Below, piece after piece: positions 2,861 to 11,632 of a stretch of 64,000 bases of DNA. The first letter of the stretch is position 1; every line of letters starts with the position of its first letter. Under the pieces are notes generated by a model. It had not been told where the DNA came from. It ran no database searches and worked only from the letters and a program-made list of their open reading frames with translations. The stretch comes from Lachnospiraceae bacterium (GTDB lineage: Bacteria; Bacillota; Clostridia; Lachnospirales; Lachnospiraceae): the NCBI GenBank assembly GCA_029006155.1, contig JAQXGF010000027.1, positions 1 through 64,000 of the forward strand, in the 5' to 3' direction. The position numbers and the translations under genes were made by a program.

Positions 2861-2888
2861 TTGACAAATTCGCGGGTGGGGGTATAAT
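2861..2888 (+). promoter_or_regulatory. Promoter of the B12-riboswitch surface-protein operon
   Basis: TTGACA (2861-2866) and TATAAT (2883-2888) with 16 bp spacing, immediately upstream of the cobalamin riboswitch. Confidence 0.7.
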
Positions 2889-2905
2889 GGAAAGCAAGGA
2901 TACGG

Positions 2906-3025
2906 ATCAGGGATTTTATGGACGCTGTCGCGGAAAAAGAACAGCACCCATAGGAAGCCGGGTGAGAATCCCGCACAGGAACGCTACTGTGATGAGCCAT
3001 GCTCTAAGTCAGGTCGATCTCTGAT
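2906..3025 (+). promoter_or_regulatory. Cobalamin (adenosylcobalamin-type) riboswitch
   Basis: The conserved cobalamin aptamer core is readable in order: a GGAAGCCGGGTGAGAATCC block at about 2952-2970, then a CGCTACTGTGA block, then the distal AAGTCAGG element at 3006-3013. The closing helix P1 pairs ATCAGGGAT (2906-2914) with ATCTCTGAT (3017-3025). In this family, binding of B12 usually lowers downstream expression. Here the first downstream genes are secreted proteins rather than B12 synthesis or transport genes. Confidence 0.88.
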
Positions 3026-3074
3026 ACGTCGTGCACGGACCCTCGAGCTCAGGGTGCACGGTATTTCGCAGTTC

Positions 3075-3105
3075 GGATGTACTCCTTTGGGTGCGTCCTT
3101 TTTTT
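3075..3105 (+). terminator. Riboswitch expression-platform terminator
   Basis: A ten-pair stem, 3075-3084 with 3089-3098 including G-U pairs, is followed by TTTTTTT. A competing hairpin at 3031-3059 (GTGCA and CCCT against AGGGTGCAC) lies between it and the aptamer. This fits transcriptional control by the cobalamin riboswitch. Confidence 0.7.
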
Positions 3106-3270
3106 ATCCCCATAAATATTTTCGGGGATGCGAGAGGACGACGCAGGAGAGAGACCCTTTACAGCCGAATGAAGAATACGCCTGGTACATGGGGAGGGGA
3201 GGACACAGGTGTGAGCCTGCCGAAAGTGAGCCCCCGTTCAAAGGAACCAGTAACAAACAGAGGATTGCCA
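3106..3270 (+). promoter_or_regulatory. Long structured leader after the riboswitch terminator
   Basis: About 165 nt separate the terminator from the first start codon. The segment holds ATCCCC/GGGGAT (3106-3129), a possible closing pair CTGGT/ACCAG, a GGGG/CCCC helix and a CAGG/CCTG hairpin. Positions 3205-3227 match the small RNA at 2571-2594 at 22 of 24 positions. It may be a second regulatory domain. I cannot name the class. Confidence 0.4.
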
Positions 3271-3292
3271 AATGGCAGAAAGGAAAATGAGT

Positions 3293-3865
3293 ATGAAGAC
3301 TAGAATGAAAAAGGTATCAGCACTTGTATTGGCAGCAGCTATGGCGATGGGAACCTATACGTCCGCTTTCGCAGCAGATATGACCGTATATCTGCGTAGC
3401 ATTGGAAAGGACGCTACCGCTCCGACTCCGGAACTTTCTTTTACGGTTCATAATGTGAATTCTACTATGTCAATTTACAAGGCATTAGAATTGGCACCAA
3501 ATACGAAGGGAATGCTTGATACTGGAGTTACTTTGAGCACCGAGTGGTCTCGTGTAACTAACAAGGATAATACCGAAGATTGGTATTTAACGTATCTCAA
3601 GGCATCGGATGCAAACGCTAAGGTTGAATATGAGGCAGAGAATAATGGCGGAAATACTAAATTATACAAAGACAGTGAAGGGAATTATATCGGTGGAGTT
3701 TATGAAGGAAATTCTTGGATGTGGTGCATGGCAGATGCTACCAGCTACCCTGAAGATATTACTTTAAGCGATCAGAAGTGTAAGGACAGCAATTTCGCTA
3801 TTATTCTGAGTTATGATTATTCTTCTTTCAAGTGGGGTGACACCACTGGGACTCCGGAGCCGTAA
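3293..3865 (+). CDS. Secreted DUF4430-type protein, candidate corrinoid-binding protein
   Basis: A 190-residue exported protein. Residues 1-27 form a clear signal peptide ending in AFA before AD. The rest resembles the DUF4430 domain, the fold of the transcobalamin C-terminal (beta) domain: an N-terminal strand (MTVYLRSIG), a SIYKALELA helix, and NSWMWC near residue 140 in the place of the family's GWMY element. The start at 3293 has AGGA 8 bp upstream and gives the best signal peptide; ATGs at 3272 and 3287 are in frame and remain possible. It is the first gene after the cobalamin riboswitch, which suggests that it binds or presents corrinoids outside the cell. No sortase or lipid anchor is visible. 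Direct ligand binding is inferred. Confidence 0.75.
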   Translation: MKTRMKKVSALVLAAAMAMGTYTSAFAADMTVYLRSIGKDATAPTPELSFTVHNVNSTMSIYKALELAPNTKGMLDTGVTLSTEWSRVTNKDNTEDWYLTYLKASDANAKVEYEAENNGGNTKLYKDSEGNYIGGVYEGNSWMWCMADATSYPEDITLSDQKCKDSNFAIILSYDYSSFKWGDTTGTPEP

Positions 3866-3881
3866 AGGAGAGTAGGAAGAG

Positions 3882-6083
3882 ATGAAAAGGAAAAAGTGTA
3901 TTCTATTGTTGTCAGCTTCACTGGTATTTTCTACACTTACTCCCTCAATGATCTATGCAGAAGAGAACGAAATTCTTGCAGAAGAATCAGTGGAAATGAC
4001 TGATGATAATGGAAAAGTGGTCGAATCGGAGTCATCGGAAGATCATACTTCTATATCCATTGAATCAATTCAACCGGTAGAGTTGAGTACATCTGATACG
4101 ACGGAAGAACGGGCAGCGGTGCAGGAAATGGCGGATACTGAAAGTTCCCAGTGGACAGATTTGGTTGACTGCAATCTCCGTTATCGATATGCAGATACTG
4201 TTTTGTACATTGATGTGCTTGATAAAAATAAAGAGGTAACAGCAGATTTCGATACTTCCAGTCCGTGGACGGATAGTGCTGTATCTAAGACCGTTACAAA
4301 AATTGTGGTTGAAGACGGTATTAAAAGTATAGGAAAGAAATGGTTTAAAACAAGTACAACAGCATCATATCAGTATTTAAAAGAAGTTGTTTTGCCTTCC
4401 AGTGTAAAAAAAATAGGAGCTTGTGCGTTTGATGGTAATCAAAAGATGCAGATGATTAATCTGGAGAACGTTCAGGAAATTGGCGATACCGCGTTTCAAG
4501 GATGCAAAGCTTTAACTCAGCTTCAGCTAAATTCAGCAAAGAGTATTGAACAATATGCGTTTAATTCGTGCTCAAAAGTACAGTATCTTACTCTTGGTCA
4601 GGCAGATGTTCAGGTTGGCGAAGCTGCATTTGTTTGCAGAAATTTGAAGACTGTTTGTTATGCTGGAACAAAAGATGGATGGTCTGCGATTTGTGCGAGT
4701 GAAGATCGTCGTTTAAAACAAGTCACGGCTGTTCACTGCAAAGGCGAAGCGGCGACACCTAAAGATGCCACTTGTACAGAAAAAGGCTATGAAAGCGTAA
4801 CCTGTGCCATTTGCGGTGACTCCTATGCAGGTGATGTAATTGAAGCGCTGGGACATGACTATTCGGATGAGTATACAGTAGATGTAGCACCGACCTGTAC
4901 CGAGAAAGGTTCCCAGAGTAAGCACTGCACACGGTGTGGCGAGGCAGATCCGGACAGTGTAGAAGAACTGGCAGCACTGGGGCATGAGTATGCAGCAGAG
5001 TATACGGTAGATGTAGCACCGACTTGTACGACAGCAGGTTCCCAGAGTAAGCACTGCACGAGATGTGGCGAGGCAGATCCGGACAGCGTACAGGAGATCC
5101 CGGCATTAGGTCATGACTATGTCTCCAAAGTGACAAAGGAAGCGACCTGCACCGAGGATGGCGTACAGACGGATACCTGTACCCGTTGCGGCGATGTGAA
5201 GACACAGGCGATCAAGGCAACCGGCCATCAGTGGAGTGACTGGAAAAAGACAGCGGACGCCACGGTCAGTGGTGCAGAGCAGCAGCAGAGAACCTGCGCG
5301 ACCTGTGGCACGGTAGAGACAAAGTCCGTAGGTGAGAAACTGGCTCCGACCGCGACCGTCAATGCATCGACCATCATCTTAAAGGTAAAGCAGTCCACGA
5401 AGGGCCTGAAGGTCACCGGGCTGGCTAAGGGTGATTCCGTAGCAGCATGGAAGTCTGCCGACACAAAGGTATTTACCGTAAAGGGCAATGCCGATGGCAC
5501 CTGCACCCTGACTGGTAAGAAGAAGGGCAGTGCAAAGCTGGAGATCACGCTGGCGAGCGGCCTGACAAAGACTGTGACTGTAAAGGTACAGACAGCATCG
5601 GTCAAGACGAGCAAGGTCACAGTCGCAGAGAAGAAGCTGACGGTAAAGAAGGGCGAGAAAGCATCCCTGAAGGCGACGGTAGCTCCGTTCACTTCTGCAC
5701 AGAAGCTGACCTACATTTCTTCGAATAAGAAGGTAGCAACGGTCAGCAAGAACGGCGTTGTCACGGCGAAGAAGGCTGGCACGGCAAAGATCACCGTCAA
5801 GTCCGGCAGCAAGAAAGTCATAGTGACGATCATGGTGCCGAAGACAAAGACGACGGCGATCACCGTGGTAAAGAACATCACAGTAAAGAAGGGCAAGACC
5901 TGCAGCCTGAAGGCAAAGGTCGCTCCGAAGAACAGTGATGAGAAGATCACTTACACCTCTTCGAACAAAAAGATCGCGACCGTGACAAAGAGCGGCAAGG
6001 TCAAGGGTGTGAAGAAAGGTACGGCGACGATCACGGTAAAATCCGGATCTGAGACCGTCAAAGTAAACGTGACTGTAAAGTAA
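3882..6083 (+). CDS. Secreted LRR / CxxC-repeat / Big_2 surface protein
   Basis: 733 residues. A signal peptide (1-27) is followed by an acidic linker, BspA-type LRR_5 repeats (about 135-260), a series of Cys-pair repeats of the TCTEKG...CTRCG type (about 289-483), and Big_2-type immunoglobulin-like domains (about 487-733) with repeated TYTSSNKKVATV blocks. It follows the DUF4430 gene by 16 bp and should share its riboswitch control. The first 850 nt are AT-rich while the Cys and Big_2 part is GC-richer and closely resembles the end of the 1814-residue protein, so the gene looks like a mosaic. There is no LPXTG motif; wall attachment, if any, would be non-covalent. A surface scaffold or adhesin is likely, but the ligand is unknown. 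Confidence 0.8.
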   Translation: MKRKKCILLLSASLVFSTLTPSMIYAEENEILAEESVEMTDDNGKVVESESSEDHTSISIESIQPVELSTSDTTEERAAVQEMADTESSQWTDLVDCNLRYRYADTVLYIDVLDKNKEVTADFDTSSPWTDSAVSKTVTKIVVEDGIKSIGKKWFKTSTTASYQYLKEVVLPSSVKKIGACAFDGNQKMQMINLENVQEIGDTAFQGCKALTQLQLNSAKSIEQYAFNSCSKVQYLTLGQADVQVGEAAFVCRNLKTVCYAGTKDGWSAICASEDRRLKQVTAVHCKGEAATPKDATCTEKGYESVTCAICGDSYAGDVIEALGHDYSDEYTVDVAPTCTEKGSQSKHCTRCGEADPDSVEELAALGHEYAAEYTVDVAPTCTTAGSQSKHCTRCGEADPDSVQEIPALGHDYVSKVTKEATCTEDGVQTDTCTRCGDVKTQAIKATGHQWSDWKKTADATVSGAEQQQRTCATCGTVETKSVGEKLAPTATVNASTIILKVKQSTKGLKVTGLAKGDSVAAWKSADTKVFTVKGNADGTCTLTGKKKGSAKLEITLASGLTKTVTVKVQTASVKTSKVTVAEKKLTVKKGEKASLKATVAPFTSAQKLTYISSNKKVATVSKNGVVTAKKAGTAKITVKSGSKKVIVTIMVPKTKTTAITVVKNITVKKGKTCSLKAKVAPKNSDEKITYTSSNKKIATVTKSGKVKGVKKGTATITVKSGSETVKVNVTVK
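4854..5111 (+). repeat. Tandem repeat, two 129-bp units
   Basis: Units 4854-4982 and 4983-5111 encode two near-identical 43-residue Cys-pair modules (shared YTVDVAPTCT and SQSKHCTRCGEADPDSV). Partial diverged units flank them. Confidence 0.8.
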
Positions 6084-6117
6084 ACGGACACAGAGGAACA
6101 AAACAGGTTTTACAAAG

Positions 6118-6162
6118 AAGGGCTTTTCTTTCAGAGCAACTACGGAAGAGAAGCCCTTTTTC
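6118..6162 (+). terminator. Terminator between the second and third surface genes
   Basis: AAGGGCTT (6118-6125) pairs with AAGCCCTT (6151-6158), with further TCTT/GAAG pairing inside, followed by a short T run. It could reduce or separate expression of the 1814-residue gene from the riboswitch transcript. Confidence 0.65.
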
Positions 6163-6187
6163 GAAATGGAAGGGAGGATATAAAAGA

Positions 6188-9100
6188 ATGAGGCGTACAT
6201 GGAGATGTCTGGTAGGCTGGCTGCTCGTGGGACTGATGGTTCTGCAGCTTCCGATGACGGCACTGGCAGACGAGATCGTCCCGATCGAGGTGGAGGAGGC
6301 TGCGGAGCCTTCACTTTCAGAGGCAGAGACCGGACAGATGGATGAAGAGGATCCTGTGATGGATTCGGATTTGCCGGTGGATTCAGCAGAAGATTCAGCG
6401 GTTCCATCAGAAGAGAAATTGTCGTCCGATACCGACCTGATCGAAGGGATCGAAGTGCTCAGCGATGCGGAGGCTGCGGCGCTGGATGCACAGGCGGACG
6501 AGAGTGGGACAGAAGATGCTGAGGCGACTGAGATCGAGGTGACGGTCAGCGTCAGCAAATTTGGTGAATTTTTAAAAGATAAAGACGGTGAGCTGATGAC
6601 CGGGCGCACGGTAACACTGACCGGTCAGGCATCCTATACAATGGATGACGCACTGAAGGCAGCGCATGACCAGTATTATCCGGGCGGGGCGGAAGCTGGC
6701 TATGATTATCATGCGGATGAAGAAGGGTTTTATGACGGCGTGATCTATCGCCTGTGGGGAATCGACAGGAAGGTTGGTTCACGTATTGGATACGCCCTGA
6801 ACCATGATACTTCGGTTATGTGGGCGAATCCTGCACTGAGTGAAAAAGTGCAGGATGGCGACGATCTGCAGTTTTTTGTTCAGCAGAAGAATGAACTGTT
6901 AGCTTTTTTTGCGCAGACAGAACAGACGGTTCGGGAGGATCAGAATGCGGTTTTGCGTCTGCGGACGGCGAACGGAAACCAGTATAAAGACTGTGCGGGT
7001 GCATCCATTTATATTGACGGAGAGCTGCAGGAAGGGCTTATCACGGATGAGAACGGACGTGTGACACTCCCGGCATTGCCTTATCGGGAAGCGCCTTATT
7101 TCATTACGGCAAAAAAAACAACGCTGGTAGGTGGAGAAGAGCGTACTGCTATTACAGCGGCATACAGCAGGCTGACGGTCATTCAGGCGGGGGAAGCATC
7201 TGGAAATTATGTGAAAAGCGTGACACTGCGGAATGTGTTGGACTGGTATGAAAAAAAACAGACCGAGATGACCCTGGAAACACTGGACGGGAGTGAGGCA
7301 TTTTTAGTACCTTCGGAATATGTCCATATGCCTTTGGATAGCCAGACCAATGCGTATATGTATGTATCAGCAGAGCTTTCGGATGATCTGCCGGAGGATG
7401 CGAAGGCGTATGTAGTCTATGAGGATCCCTCAGATGAGACCATGCACCGCGTTACTCTACAAAAAAAAGGTTTCACTTATCTAATCGGTGCAATCCATAA
7501 GGGAAACCGGAATCAGGCAATTCAGTCCTTGCAGATCGAAGTCCGCAGGAATGGACAGCTGGTGGAAACGCATACGCTCCCAGTGACGTATAAAAATCAT
7601 CTGCGTTTTCTTTCGGTACAGGATTCCTGGGGACATGAGCTACTGCCGGGACTCGCGGATACGACATATGACCAGTCATGGACGATAGAAGTGCCGGAAA
7701 ATGCGACGAGTGTGACGATTCAGTCAACACCGTATGGTTATAGTAATAATTATGGCGCCTGTACTACAAAAGAGCTGGCCATAAATGGTGAAGCGATTCC
7801 TCTTGCGTTTTATCAATCTTATCAGTTTGTTCCGGACTGGCAGACACACGAGGAATACATCATTGAGATGCGGATTATAGATGAGGCAACACTTCATTGT
7901 CTTGATTCGGCTTCCTATACGATTACTTTGAAAAAAGGTGGATGGGATTACACACCGGATGTCCAGCTTACAAGTACCCGTGGAATAGGGATGTTGGCAC
8001 AGGGGTCAGAGCCACCAGTCCTGACCGCAAATGTCTCAGTGACAGGACCAAATGGAGAGGTGGAGGATACCAGTTCCTGCAGTTATCAGTGGGGGTATTA
8101 TACAAAAAATCGTAAGATTTATACTGAAATCGAAGGTGCTACGGAAGTTTCTTATATAGTACCGACAGATACCAGAACGATTGCAAGAGGATACTGCTGT
8201 AGAGTGACTTATGAGAAAGAGGGGCATGTTTATTCGGGAGAGAGTGGTATCAAAAACTTTTTTATTAACCCGGAAAAAGTAGAGACACCAGTGATTGAAA
8301 AGCAGCCGCAAAATGTACAGCATGTGCTTGGTAAGCAGGAAATTATCCAACTGGAAATTGCATTAGAAAAGACGGAGTGGGAGTATGACACATTCAGTGA
8401 CTTTAAAGCAAGGTATCAGTGGTATCAGAGCGCAGAGGCAGATGTCACAAAAGGAAGACTGCTTGCAGGCGCAACAGAGGCGACTTATAACCCTATAGTA
8501 ACAAAGGCGGGAACGGTATATTATTACTGTAAGGTAAAATATGAGCGAAATGATTATAATGCAGATACGGGGAATGTATATTCTTACAGCGATGAGGTCT
8601 GCTCAGACATCGCAAAGGTTGAATGCATTACAGAGTCTTTCCCATGGGAAGGAAATGGCTCAGAAAGCAATCCGTATCAGCTGAAGACCGCAGAAGATCT
8701 GGAAGCGCTGCGAGAGAAAGTCAACACGGATGGCTATTCCTTCGATGGCATGCATTTCCAGATGATGGCAGACATCACACTTCCATCCAACTGGAAGCCG
8801 ATCGGGGGCTTGGCTACCGGACATGGCCTGTCGGAAAACGGCAAATACCTCTGGGCTTTTTCCGGGATACTGGACGGCGCAAACCATACGCTCACGGTGG
8901 CAGATGGTGGGAAACCACTGTTCAATTACACGAGAGAGGCTACGATCGAGAACCTGAAGCTTTACGGAAAACAGATCGACGGCTACGGCCTGATCGACCG
9001 CTATACGGTCGATTATGGTACGGATGGCAATTATAATACGGGTTGCCCGGATACCGCAGTGATCCGCAACGTTACCCTGCTTTCCGGCATGAGCACGAAA

Positions 9101-11632
9101 AAGGCAGGGCTGATCGGTGGCTATGCCTCGGGCGCGAATGACATTGAGATCGAAAACTGTACGGCGGAAGCCGGGGTAATCATTGGCTATACCGGGCAGG
9201 AATCCGGTATCGGTACGTTTGCTGGCGGTTTTAATGGCGTAATGCGCAACTGTACCAGTGCGGCAACAGTATGCGGAGTCGATAAGGTCGGAGGACTGGT
9301 AGGTGCCAAGGGACAGTCGATGGGGGCATGCACGGTCACGAACAGCAGCTTCACAGGGACAGTCATGGCATCCGGCAAATGGGCAGGCGGCATCCTCGGC
9401 AGTGGCTATGAGGCTTCTTCGGCACCAAACACGCCGGTGGCATCTGTGAAGAACTGCTACGTGGCAGGCAAGGTTTCCGGAGGATCAAATGTTGGCGGCA
9501 TCTTCGGTGGCGAGCCGAGCTGCAAACAGTGCTGGGGCAACGGCAGCGGTGCGATCACGAACAACTTCTTCTACGGCACAGTCAGCGGCAGCAGCAACGT
9601 AGGTGCGATTGTCGGGTATCTGAGAGGGTTTGACAAGTTTCAGGGCATTTCGAACAATTATTACCTGGATACCTGTGGGGCTGCTTCTGGCATTGGTGGT
9701 ATCGGTACGATTCTGACGATATCCGGCAACCCGCAGGATCTTCCGTATGAATACGATGACACTTACGGCATCGATTACAAGTTTGACCAGACCCTGTACT
9801 GCTTCCCGAAGACGGCAACGGAGTTCGCCAATGGCACGGTGACAGCCGGTCTGAACAGCGGCAACTATACGAACTGGGAGCAGGGAACGAATTATCCTGT
9901 TTATGGAGCCGGGGCTTATGCGACGGCGCTGGAGATTTCCGGTGACTACAAGAAGGAGTATGACCTTGGCGAGGAGCTCGACCTTTCCGGTGCGACGATC
10001 ACGGTCACGATGAGCAACGGCACGAAGGCACATCCGGAGTGGAAGGAGCTGACCTTCGTTGGTTACAATCCAAATAAGGTCGGCAGCCAGATGCTGCAGG
10101 TCAAGTACGGCGCGGTAGAGACGACGATCACGGTCGCAGTATTCCAACCGGCCGGAAAGATCGCAGTGACGTTTTCTTTACTTGGCGATACGGTTCACGA
10201 CAGCGATACGGACGGACAGGTACATACGTTAAGCAAGGGCAACCTGCAGACGTGGATTCCGGAGACGCAGATGGTCGTGGATGGCCGCGCGACAGTCAAG
10301 ACGGTACTGGAAGCAGCCCTGGCGGAAAATGGCATGAGCTGCTACAACCCGAAGGGCAATTATGTCGTATCCGTCACAAAGGGGGATGTGACCCTTGCAG
10401 AATTTACGAACGGAAAGAACACGGGCTGGATGTACACCTTAAACGGACACCACCCGGAGAATGCAGTCAATGAGCAGTACCTGAACAATGGGGATGTGAT
10501 CGTCTTCCACTACACGGATTACTACCAGATCGAGGAGCATGAGCACAAATGGCTGACAAGCTGGAGCTACGACGCATCTTCCCACTGGAAAGCCTGCGAG
10601 TGGAACTGTGGGTCGAAAAAAGAGGAAGCACCGCACACGTTTGGTGCATGGCGTACCGTCTCTTCGGCAACGGTGGATGCAGCCGAGATGCAGGCGCGGT
10701 CCTGTGCCGTCTGCGGCTATCAGGAGATGCGAAGCTACGGCAGCCCGCTGGAGAAGACCTGCTTAAATGACGGCGTCTCGCACCGGTACGGGGCATGGAC
10801 GACGGCCACGGCGGCGACGGTATTCTCACCGGAGACGCAGGCCAGCACCTGTGAGCTCTGCGGCAAGAAGCAGTACCGGCAGGCCGGCAGCGCACTCGCG
10901 CCGACGATGCAGGTCAATGCAGAGAAGATTATCTTAAAGACCGGACAGGCAACGACCGGCTTCCGGGTAAGCAATCTTGCGGCGGGAGACTCGGTAGCCT
11001 CCTACACATCGAGCAACACGAAGCTCTTTACCGTCAACGGAAGCGGTAAACTGACCGCAAAGAAGAAGACCGGCAGTGCGAAGCTGACGGTGACACTTGC
11101 GAGCGGCTACAGCCGTACCGTGACGGTCACGGTCCAGAAGGCGGCAGTCAGGACGACGAAGCTCACGGGCCTTGCAAAGAAGATGACACTGGAAAAAGGA
11201 AAGAAGGCGACGCTTTCTCCGGTCGTCACTCCGTTTACCTCCCGGCAGAAGGTGACCTACACCTCTTCCAATAAGAAGGTGGCAACGGTCAGCGCAAAGG
11301 GTGTCATCGTGGCAAAGAAGTCCGGTACGGCCAAGATCACCGTCAAGTCCGGCAATAAGAAGTTTGTCGTGACCGTGACGGTACCGAAGACTCCGACGAC
11401 TGCGATCACCGGCGTCCCGGCGACAGTCAGTGTGAAAAAAGGAAAGACGTATACCTTAAAGGCAAAGGCAGCTCCGAAGGGCAGCGAGGAGAAACTGACC
11501 TACACTTCTTCGAACAAGAAAGTAGCAACGGTCAGCAAGAGTGGTAAGATCAAAGGTGTGAAGAAAGGCACGGCGACGATCACCGTGAAGTCCGGAAAGG
11601 TATCGGTGAAGGTGACGGTAACCGTAAAATAG
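6188..11632 (+). CDS. Giant secreted multidomain protein with two DUF4430-like domains
   Basis: 1814 residues; GGGAGGA precedes the ATG. Domains in order: signal peptide (about 1-27), acidic linker, DUF4430-like domain 1 (about 118-235), beta-rich Ig-like modules, a GLUG-type repeat region (about 835-1170) with repeated VGGLVG/AGGILG blocks, a Big_3-like domain (about 1250-1318), DUF4430-like domain 2 (about 1325-1448) with the hallmark GWMYTLNG and a later NGDVIVFHYTDY, Cys-pair repeats (1453-1568), and Big_2-like domains (1571-1814) homologous to those of the preceding gene. DUF4430 is related to the transcobalamin beta domain. Position behind a cobalamin riboswitch therefore supports a corrinoid-capture role. 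No sortase motif is seen. Whether the riboswitch reaches this gene past the terminator at 6118 is uncertain. Confidence 0.82.
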   Translation: MRRTWRCLVGWLLVGLMVLQLPMTALADEIVPIEVEEAAEPSLSEAETGQMDEEDPVMDSDLPVDSAEDSAVPSEEKLSSDTDLIEGIEVLSDAEAAALDAQADESGTEDAEATEIEVTVSVSKFGEFLKDKDGELMTGRTVTLTGQASYTMDDALKAAHDQYYPGGAEAGYDYHADEEGFYDGVIYRLWGIDRKVGSRIGYALNHDTSVMWANPALSEKVQDGDDLQFFVQQKNELLAFFAQTEQTVREDQNAVLRLRTANGNQYKDCAGASIYIDGELQEGLITDENGRVTLPALPYREAPYFITAKKTTLVGGEERTAITAAYSRLTVIQAGEASGNYVKSVTLRNVLDWYEKKQTEMTLETLDGSEAFLVPSEYVHMPLDSQTNAYMYVSAELSDDLPEDAKAYVVYEDPSDETMHRVTLQKKGFTYLIGAIHKGNRNQAIQSLQIEVRRNGQLVETHTLPVTYKNHLRFLSVQDSWGHELLPGLADTTYDQSWTIEVPENATSVTIQSTPYGYSNNYGACTTKELAINGEAIPLAFYQSYQFVPDWQTHEEYIIEMRIIDEATLHCLDSASYTITLKKGGWDYTPDVQLTSTRGIGMLAQGSEPPVLTANVSVTGPNGEVEDTSSCSYQWGYYTKNRKIYTEIEGATEVSYIVPTDTRTIARGYCCRVTYEKEGHVYSGESGIKNFFINPEKVETPVIEKQPQNVQHVLGKQEIIQLEIALEKTEWEYDTFSDFKARYQWYQSAEADVTKGRLLAGATEATYNPIVTKAGTVYYYCKVKYERNDYNADTGNVYSYSDEVCSDIAKVECITESFPWEGNGSESNPYQLKTAEDLEALREKVNTDGYSFDGMHFQMMADITLPSNWKPIGGLATGHGLSENGKYLWAFSGILDGANHTLTVADGGKPLFNYTREATIENLKLYGKQIDGYGLIDRYTVDYGTDGNYNTGCPDTAVIRNVTLLSGMSTKKAGLIGGYASGANDIEIENCTAEAGVIIGYTGQESGIGTFAGGFNGVMRNCTSAATVCGVDKVGGLVGAKGQSMGACTVTNSSFTGTVMASGKWAGGILGSGYEASSAPNTPVASVKNCYVAGKVSGGSNVGGIFGGEPSCKQCWGNGSGAITNNFFYGTVSGSSNVGAIVGYLRGFDKFQGISNNYYLDTCGAASGIGGIGTILTISGNPQDLPYEYDDTYGIDYKFDQTLYCFPKTATEFANGTVTAGLNSGNYTNWEQGTNYPVYGAGAYATALEISGDYKKEYDLGEELDLSGATITVTMSNGTKAHPEWKELTFVGYNPNKVGSQMLQVKYGAVETTITVAVFQPAGKIAVTFSLLGDTVHDSDTDGQVHTLSKGNLQTWIPETQMVVDGRATVKTVLEAALAENGMSCYNPKGNYVVSVTKGDVTLAEFTNGKNTGWMYTLNGHHPENAVNEQYLNNGDVIVFHYTDYYQIEEHEHKWLTSWSYDASSHWKACEWNCGSKKEEAPHTFGAWRTVSSATVDAAEMQARSCAVCGYQEMRSYGSPLEKTCLNDGVSHRYGAWTTATAATVFSPETQASTCELCGKKQYRQAGSALAPTMQVNAEKIILKTGQATTGFRVSNLAAGDSVASYTSSNTKLFTVNGSGKLTAKKKTGSAKLTVTLASGYSRTVTVTVQKAAVRTTKLTGLAKKMTLEKGKKATLSPVVTPFTSRQKVTYTSSNKKVATVSAKGVIVAKKSGTAKITVKSGNKKFVVTVTVPKTPTTAITGVPATVSVKKGKTYTLKAKAAPKGSEEKLTYTSSNKKVATVSKSGKIKGVKKGTATITVKSGKVSVKVTVTVK

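Follow-up and report, generated by a model that had tools for sequence, protein, structure and literature searches.

Secreted transcobalamin-like proteins of Gram-positive bacteria, some of them fused to toroids or encoded in CbiO/CbiQ operons, were described by Burroughs et al. in 2007 and proposed to scavenge vitamin B12 (PMC1796856). The main text of that paper does not use the word riboswitch. The beta domain of human transcobalamin binds cyanocobalamin and cobinamide in crystals on its own; as separate pieces, its alpha and beta domains come together only in the presence of ligand (PMC5599065). For BtuG of Bacteroides, the search reported by Wexler et al. returned no homologues outside Bacteroidetes (PMC6143338). 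Here, we describe an operon near the start of a 64,000-nucleotide stretch of a Lachnospiraceae genome (GCA_029006155.1, contig JAQXGF010000027.1; hereafter the window), in which a cobalamin riboswitch precedes genes for three exported-looking proteins, P1, P2 and P3, the last of which carries a DUF4430 domain. We estimate at roughly two in three the probability that this operon is a B12-repressed unit for extracellular corrinoid capture that feeds an importer of the energy-coupling factor (ECF) type. An earlier interpretation made from the DNA letters only (the sequence-only reading) had regarded a Firmicute capture system built from DUF4430 scaffolds as new, which fails because B12 scavenging was already proposed in 2007 (PMC1796856). 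The function was thus predicted then, and the link to a riboswitch is the part that we did not find in print; the literature covered consisted mostly of open papers without their supplements, and regulon tables may hold this link. The nearest hint comes from Clostridium ljungdahlii, where some high-threonine proteins adjoin adenosylcobamide riboswitches (PMC5640608).

The leader of the operon opens with a sigma-70-type promoter on the + strand (TTGACA-16-TATAAT, 2861..2888) that matches the consensus at 12 of 12 positions. It is followed by a compact cobalamin (adenosylcobalamin-type) riboswitch aptamer, including its 3' hairpin, at 2935..3062 (+). This aptamer matched RF01482 over 149 of 149 model positions with 49.0 bits, one bit below the curated gathering score of 50 (E-value of 9.3e-8, with 1 kb searched in E-value mode), and was the best match in a search of the whole genome (E-value of 7.3e-8). 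Its match to RF00174 was weak (20.4 bits), and a covariance model of our own, R1, built only from 11 riboswitches of this genome, scored it at 28.1 bits. The genome's RF00174 matches above the cut-off (n = 11) have a long insert, as judged by eye, whereas the window aptamer is compact and has none. In an alignment, three leaders from one locus (L185) of Parablautia sp. Marseille-Q6255 had almost the same aptamer core; two of these leaders matched RF01482 (34.8 and 36.7 bits) and all three matched R1 (35–37 bits). A terminator-like 10-pair stem with a T-run at 3075..3105 (+) precedes P1, a probable expression platform 5' of the gene. In minimum-energy folds, the aptamer helices and the terminator form together. 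Blocking the 3' arm of the terminator in the energy fold led to an alternative pairing with the 5' end, which by itself does not settle the direction of switching, and the z-score of the leader fold was only −1.4. On this sequence evidence, the window riboswitch is real. The aptamer and terminator platform of the sequence-only reading are both found, with the aptamer at 2935–3062 rather than at 2906–3025.

Three closely spaced open reading frames (ORFs) follow on the + strand, all with N-termini that resemble signal peptides by eye: P1 (3272..3865; 197 amino acids, aa), P2 (3882..6083; 733 aa) and P3 (6188..11632; 1814 aa). No terminator-like site was found on this strand between 3200 and 11632, and the sole one between 3200 and 12000 lies past P3 (11758..11774, +), at the probable end of the operon. 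As had been read from the sequence, Pfam identified no transporter or B12-synthesis family in P1–P3. A propeller family, the fold of BtuG, was likewise not found in them by Pfam. P2 is an LRR_5 (BspA-type) protein with C-terminal Big_2 repeats (E-values of 2.9e-19 and 5.9e-25, respectively), while P3 consists of a borderline N-terminal DUF4430-like region followed by Big_3, DUF4430 and Big_2. The last 280–370 residues of P2 and P3 are ~56–62% identical to stretches of proteins encoded on two other contigs of the genome, C118 and C8, and this common C-terminal part looks like a shared surface module.

The DUF4430 domain of P3 (aa 1369–1443; 10292..10516, +) matched PF14478 with 40.9 bits (cut-off 23.8). 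Its predicted model has the fold of the transcobalamin beta domain, consistent with the kinship proposed earlier, and its sequence identity to the human carriers is only 11–22%; P3 adds a new member to the transcobalamin-like SLBB clade. By hhalign, the N-terminal region of P3 (6518..6967, +) gave 43% and 49% (P of 1.7e-4) and is a borderline second, possibly diverged DUF4430-like domain. Homologues of P3 include a protein of locus L086 (39% identical over 887 aa), whose gene also lies behind a riboswitch (R1, 34.6 bits), and the large protein of locus L126 (33% over 870 aa, plus 33% over an N-terminal 268).

The sequence-only reading had assigned a DUF4430-like domain to P1 as well as to P3, and for P1 this was not borne out. 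There was no Pfam match, hhalign gave 0.6%, hmmsearch with filters off gave no support, and neither did a single-sequence fold of poor confidence (predicted local distance difference test of 41). Two N-terminal matches to NCBIfam were weak and below the cut-off, and the best BLAST relative (locus L217, 32% over 88 aa) aligned mostly across the signal-peptide region. P1 is a near-orphan, with homologues at E ≤ 0.01 in three of 200 genomes including its own, the other two being weak, and none in the GTDB scan described below.

We determined how often riboswitches accompany DUF4430 by searching PF14478 in 200 genomes of the same family, the source genome included, 95 of which contained a match. 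The neighbourhood set covered 119 regions of 93 genomes, with 142 matches in total and some flanks shortened by contig ends; it excludes the source genome and three matches below the Pfam cut-off. Counting R1 hits down to ~21 bits, a riboswitch was present upstream on the same strand within 1, 3, 5 and 8 kb of 39, 49, 59 and 70 of the matches. The corresponding downstream counts, on either strand, were 0, 1, 2 and 3, and the two series are fairly comparable only to 5 kb because ~8 kb upstream and 5 kb downstream were fetched. When the same hits were randomly placed within their regions, 9.2 ± 2.8 fell within 3 kb, with a maximum of 20 in 2000 trials. As a negative control, R1 had no match in eight other loci (76,503 bases: L166–L170, L175 and L176 of the source genome, plus L155).

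A scan of GTDB genomes with the P3 domain and six relatives yielded 129 relatives, and 79 distinct loci were retained from these. This set partly overlaps the family set, with at least four contigs (10702, 152884, 38638 and 17069 bases) common to both as judged from their lengths. R1 gave 69 hits over the 79 loci, 66 of them on the gene strand. A riboswitch lay upstream of the domain match at 49 loci, downstream on the same strand at six and on the other strand at three. Where the ORF start was visible (n = 70), the distance to it was ≤1.5 kb in 43 cases and ≤600 bp in 34. Loci with an upstream riboswitch include those of Emergencia timonensis, Sporobacter termitidis, Parablautia sp. and Cellulosilyticum ruminicola, and those where R1 found none include Butyricicoccus sp. 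Marseille-Q5471, Acetitomaculum ruminis and Blautia glucerasea. Two loci, L185 and L136, carry three cobalamin riboswitches in tandem, each heading its own DUF4430 gene; in L185 all three DUF4430 matches exceed the cut-off, the first gene being P3-like and the third resembling a gene on contig C8. Units like that of the window, with a riboswitch and an exported-looking DUF4430 protein and no recognised ECF gene nearby, were found in L113, L136 and L143, where the first gene encodes a small DUF4430 protein. The riboswitch association follows DUF4430 across differing partner domains, and the recurrence that the sequence-only reading had set as a check is seen in both the family set (49/142) and the GTDB set (49/79). 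Because this pairing recurs in many related bacteria, the operon is probably part of extracellular B12 capture.

We also looked at ECF genes near DUF4430. An EcfT relative, identified in seed searches, lay within 7 kb on the same strand in 49 of the 142 family matches, and a further 53 had within 1.5 kb a small membrane protein that we call S1; we give these as two parts instead of a combined 102/142 because Pfam did not confirm S1. A riboswitch ≤8 kb upstream accompanied 25 matches of the EcfT group, 27 of the S1 group and 18 with neither neighbour. The EcfT of the source genome (L166) belongs to the CbiQ family (30.5 bits, cut-off 25), and no CbiQ match was found by Pfam for the EcfT seeds of L053 and L126. 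A second, larger S protein matched PF12822 above the cut-off (46.0 and 37.7 bits). At L126, a riboswitch (RF00174, 86 bits) is followed by a small ORF and then by genes for a 1959-aa protein, for a DUF4430 protein, for an EcfT relative and for an ATPase–S fusion. This 1959-aa homologue of P3 has the same domain order plus a toroid (26.8 bits, cut-off 26.5). The small ORF of ~100 aa that separates the riboswitch from the large DUF4430 gene (L126:3614-3949) has a counterpart at L098:4394-4693 that is alike by eye.

The source genome itself holds the ECF/DUF4430/toroid module in pieces on other contigs, as judged by similarity. C95 encodes S and EcfT proteins that are 46% and 34% identical to those of L126, next to an ATPase gene cut by the contig end. 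C8 encodes a DUF4430 partner 43% identical to its L126 counterpart, and C118 a toroid-plus-DUF4430 protein (DUF4430, 50.1 bits). Extracellular corrinoid capture, as put forward by the sequence-only reading, is supported by context: the riboswitch found by covariance model, the gene order, the predicted beta-domain fold, the recurrent riboswitch linkage, the partial linkage to CbiQ-type ECF genes and an ECF module of this kind elsewhere in the genome.

The most economical mechanism, which we infer from these findings, extends to the direction of switching, to export and surface anchoring, to ligand binding and hand-over, and to the assembly of two halves in trans. At high cellular cobalamin, the compact riboswitch would bind cobalamin and transcription would be expected to end at the terminator; at low cobalamin, P1, P2 and P3 would be made and exported. 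P3 may be anchored at the surface via its Big_2 repeats, with its beta-like domain forming one half of a corrinoid clamp. The window operon is a variant without toroid and transporter; the second half, an alpha/alpha toroid, may be supplied by a different exported protein of the genome, such as that of C118. Supply in trans is possible because the alpha and beta domains of human transcobalamin assemble with ligand (PMC5599065). The ECF importer module and its DUF4430 partner, encoded on C95 and C8, would then receive the captured corrinoid. A more specific version, which we offer tentatively, is a split extracellular transcobalamin of Clostridia under B12-riboswitch control, in which beta halves (DUF4430) and alpha halves (toroids), exported from distinct genes or units, would enclose a corrinoid at the cell wall and dock to an anchored DUF4430 protein that belongs to an ECF importer.

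Several observations weigh against capture. The window aptamer falls just short of the RF01482 threshold, and Rfam at the gathering threshold listed only a tRNA in the window. No riboswitch lies within 3 kb upstream of 93 of the 142 family matches or upstream at 30 of the 79 GTDB loci, and 40 of the 142 have neither an EcfT relative nor S1 nearby. As an ECF S component, S1 was at best weakly supported: Pfam gave no match in three of the five proteins tested, and PF12822 scored 14.7 and 10.6 bits in the other two (cut-off 30.7); a search at an E-value of 0.001, which covered two such proteins, gave no ECF match either. Pfam detected no ECF S, T or A gene among P1–P3, leaving the operon without a transporter, and no Prenyltrans or other toroid match in P3. 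The toroid match on C118 (Prenyltrans, 22.4 bits) is below the Pfam cut-off of 26.5, and the riboswitch beside this gene is oriented away from it, toward a leucine-rich repeat (LRR) gene. The DUF4430 genes of C8 have no riboswitch 5' of them by R1 or by Rfam up to an E-value of 1. A shared fold, here a predicted one, by itself shows no function, including the corrinoid binding that we infer for the P3 domain. Lastly, capture leaves the role of P1 unexplained.

The strongest of the alternatives is that P1–P3 are adhesins or other surface proteins made under B12 scarcity and that the ligand of DUF4430 is of another kind, for example a glycan or a metal. P2, composed of LRR and Big_2, has no B12-linked domain, the other Pfam matches of P3 are Ig-like, and a DUF4430-fold structure from Ruminococcus gnavus is titled a putative metal-binding protein. 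Moreover, an LRR_5 gene without an obvious signal peptide lies behind the B12 riboswitch on C118, with a similar arrangement by eye in L237. We nevertheless consider this alternative unlikely, as the riboswitch association tracks DUF4430 across partner domains and some members of the family lie next to CbiQ-type ECF genes. Still less probable in our view is a ligand other than complete B12, namely a corrinoid precursor or relative (cobinamide, another cobamide or a cobalt-tetrapyrrole). It would be consistent with cobinamide binding by the isolated human beta domain (PMC5599065) and with other B12-riboswitch units of this genome that contain an exported-looking CbiK and a NEAT-like protein by eye; nothing in our data separates precursor from B12, and this alternative would refine corrinoid capture. 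A last alternative, suggested by the three tandem units of L185 (the first P3-like, the third C8-like), by an assembly in 150 contigs and by a window beginning at a contig end, is that decay or mis-assembly has left here only a fragment, functionless by itself, of a larger riboswitch–DUF4430–ECF locus. We hold this very improbable given three long open ORFs, the presence of promoter, aptamer and terminator, and the units without a recognised ECF gene nearby in L113, L136 and L143.

Other elements were observed in the window and elsewhere. A possible small RNA or leader of ~170 nt lies at 2491-2690 of the window, with a promoter (TTGAAA-17-TATAAT) and a hairpin with T-run identified by eye. Rfam gave no match to it as a further cobalamin riboswitch up to an E-value of 10. 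A 90% copy at C138:4355-4526 is also beside a related LRR gene, where R1 found no riboswitch, and a diverged relative on C118 (L024:18690-18925) scored 20.8 bits with R1 and had no Rfam match up to an E-value of 1. A 21-nt near-repeat (90%) links this element (2571-2591) to the P1 leader 3' of the terminator (3205-3225). LRR_5-type proteins without an obvious signal peptide are encoded at 1519-2340 (−) of the window, L175:3353-4174 (−), L024:11188-12027 (−) and L237:3237-4121 (−), assigned by Pfam for the window and L024 and by similarity or eye for L175 and L237. Their genes are divergent from an element of the 2491-2690 type or from a surface-protein gene, and those of C118 and of Blautia glucerasea (L237) are preceded by a minus-strand cobalamin riboswitch. 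On contig C50 (L029:2388-15388), two further cobalamin riboswitches precede genes for an exported-looking CbiK-type chelatase with a weak NEAT-like neighbour and for a 1595-aa protein that looks exported and has, by eye, NEAT-like repeats (no Pfam match), together with a Peripla_BP_2 protein and what by eye are ABC transporter genes. These units are possibly another tetrapyrrole capture system. Near the contig end, the window encodes a Fic-family protein (729-1418, +; PF02661, 26.1 bits, cut-off 24).

The riboswitch link provides regulatory support, in many genomes at once, for the scavenging prediction of 2007, which otherwise has no such evidence in the literature searched, and it names concrete proteins, leaders and partners. 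If corrinoid capture is correct, Lachnospiraceae and their relatives would compete for corrinoids with surface carriers that share the fold of host carriers, with a bearing on gut B12 ecology and on the origin of animal B12 carriers. A split carrier, if real, would be a Gram-positive counterpart of BtuG–BtuB and a living relative of whatever gave rise to those animal carriers.

Among known systems, the proteins of Burroughs et al. (PMC1796856) are similar in being secreted and multidomain, with a transcobalamin C-terminal beta-grasp domain and Ig-like companions, in operons that may hold a second such protein, and in their predicted B12 scavenging. Unlike those systems as described there, the window operon lacks both a toroid and CbiO/CbiQ (ECF) genes, and a B12 riboswitch heads it. 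Human transcobalamin, haptocorrin and intrinsic factor differ from P3, which lacks an alpha toroid match, has a surface-repeat architecture and is only distantly identical to them (11–22%). RUMGNA_00854 of R. gnavus (PDB 3u7z), the putative metal-binding protein, has the DUF4430 fold in a solved chain of ~100 residues, without the large surface architecture of P3. The B12 importer ECF-CbrT (Santos et al. 2018, PMC5997447) suggests an ECF module as the probable membrane partner here too; in contrast to that system, the window contains no importer gene. BtuG of Bacteroides (Wexler et al. 2018, PMC6143338) captures corrinoids at the surface under the control of a B12 riboswitch, as we propose for the window operon, whose proteins differ from it in domain content and cell envelope.

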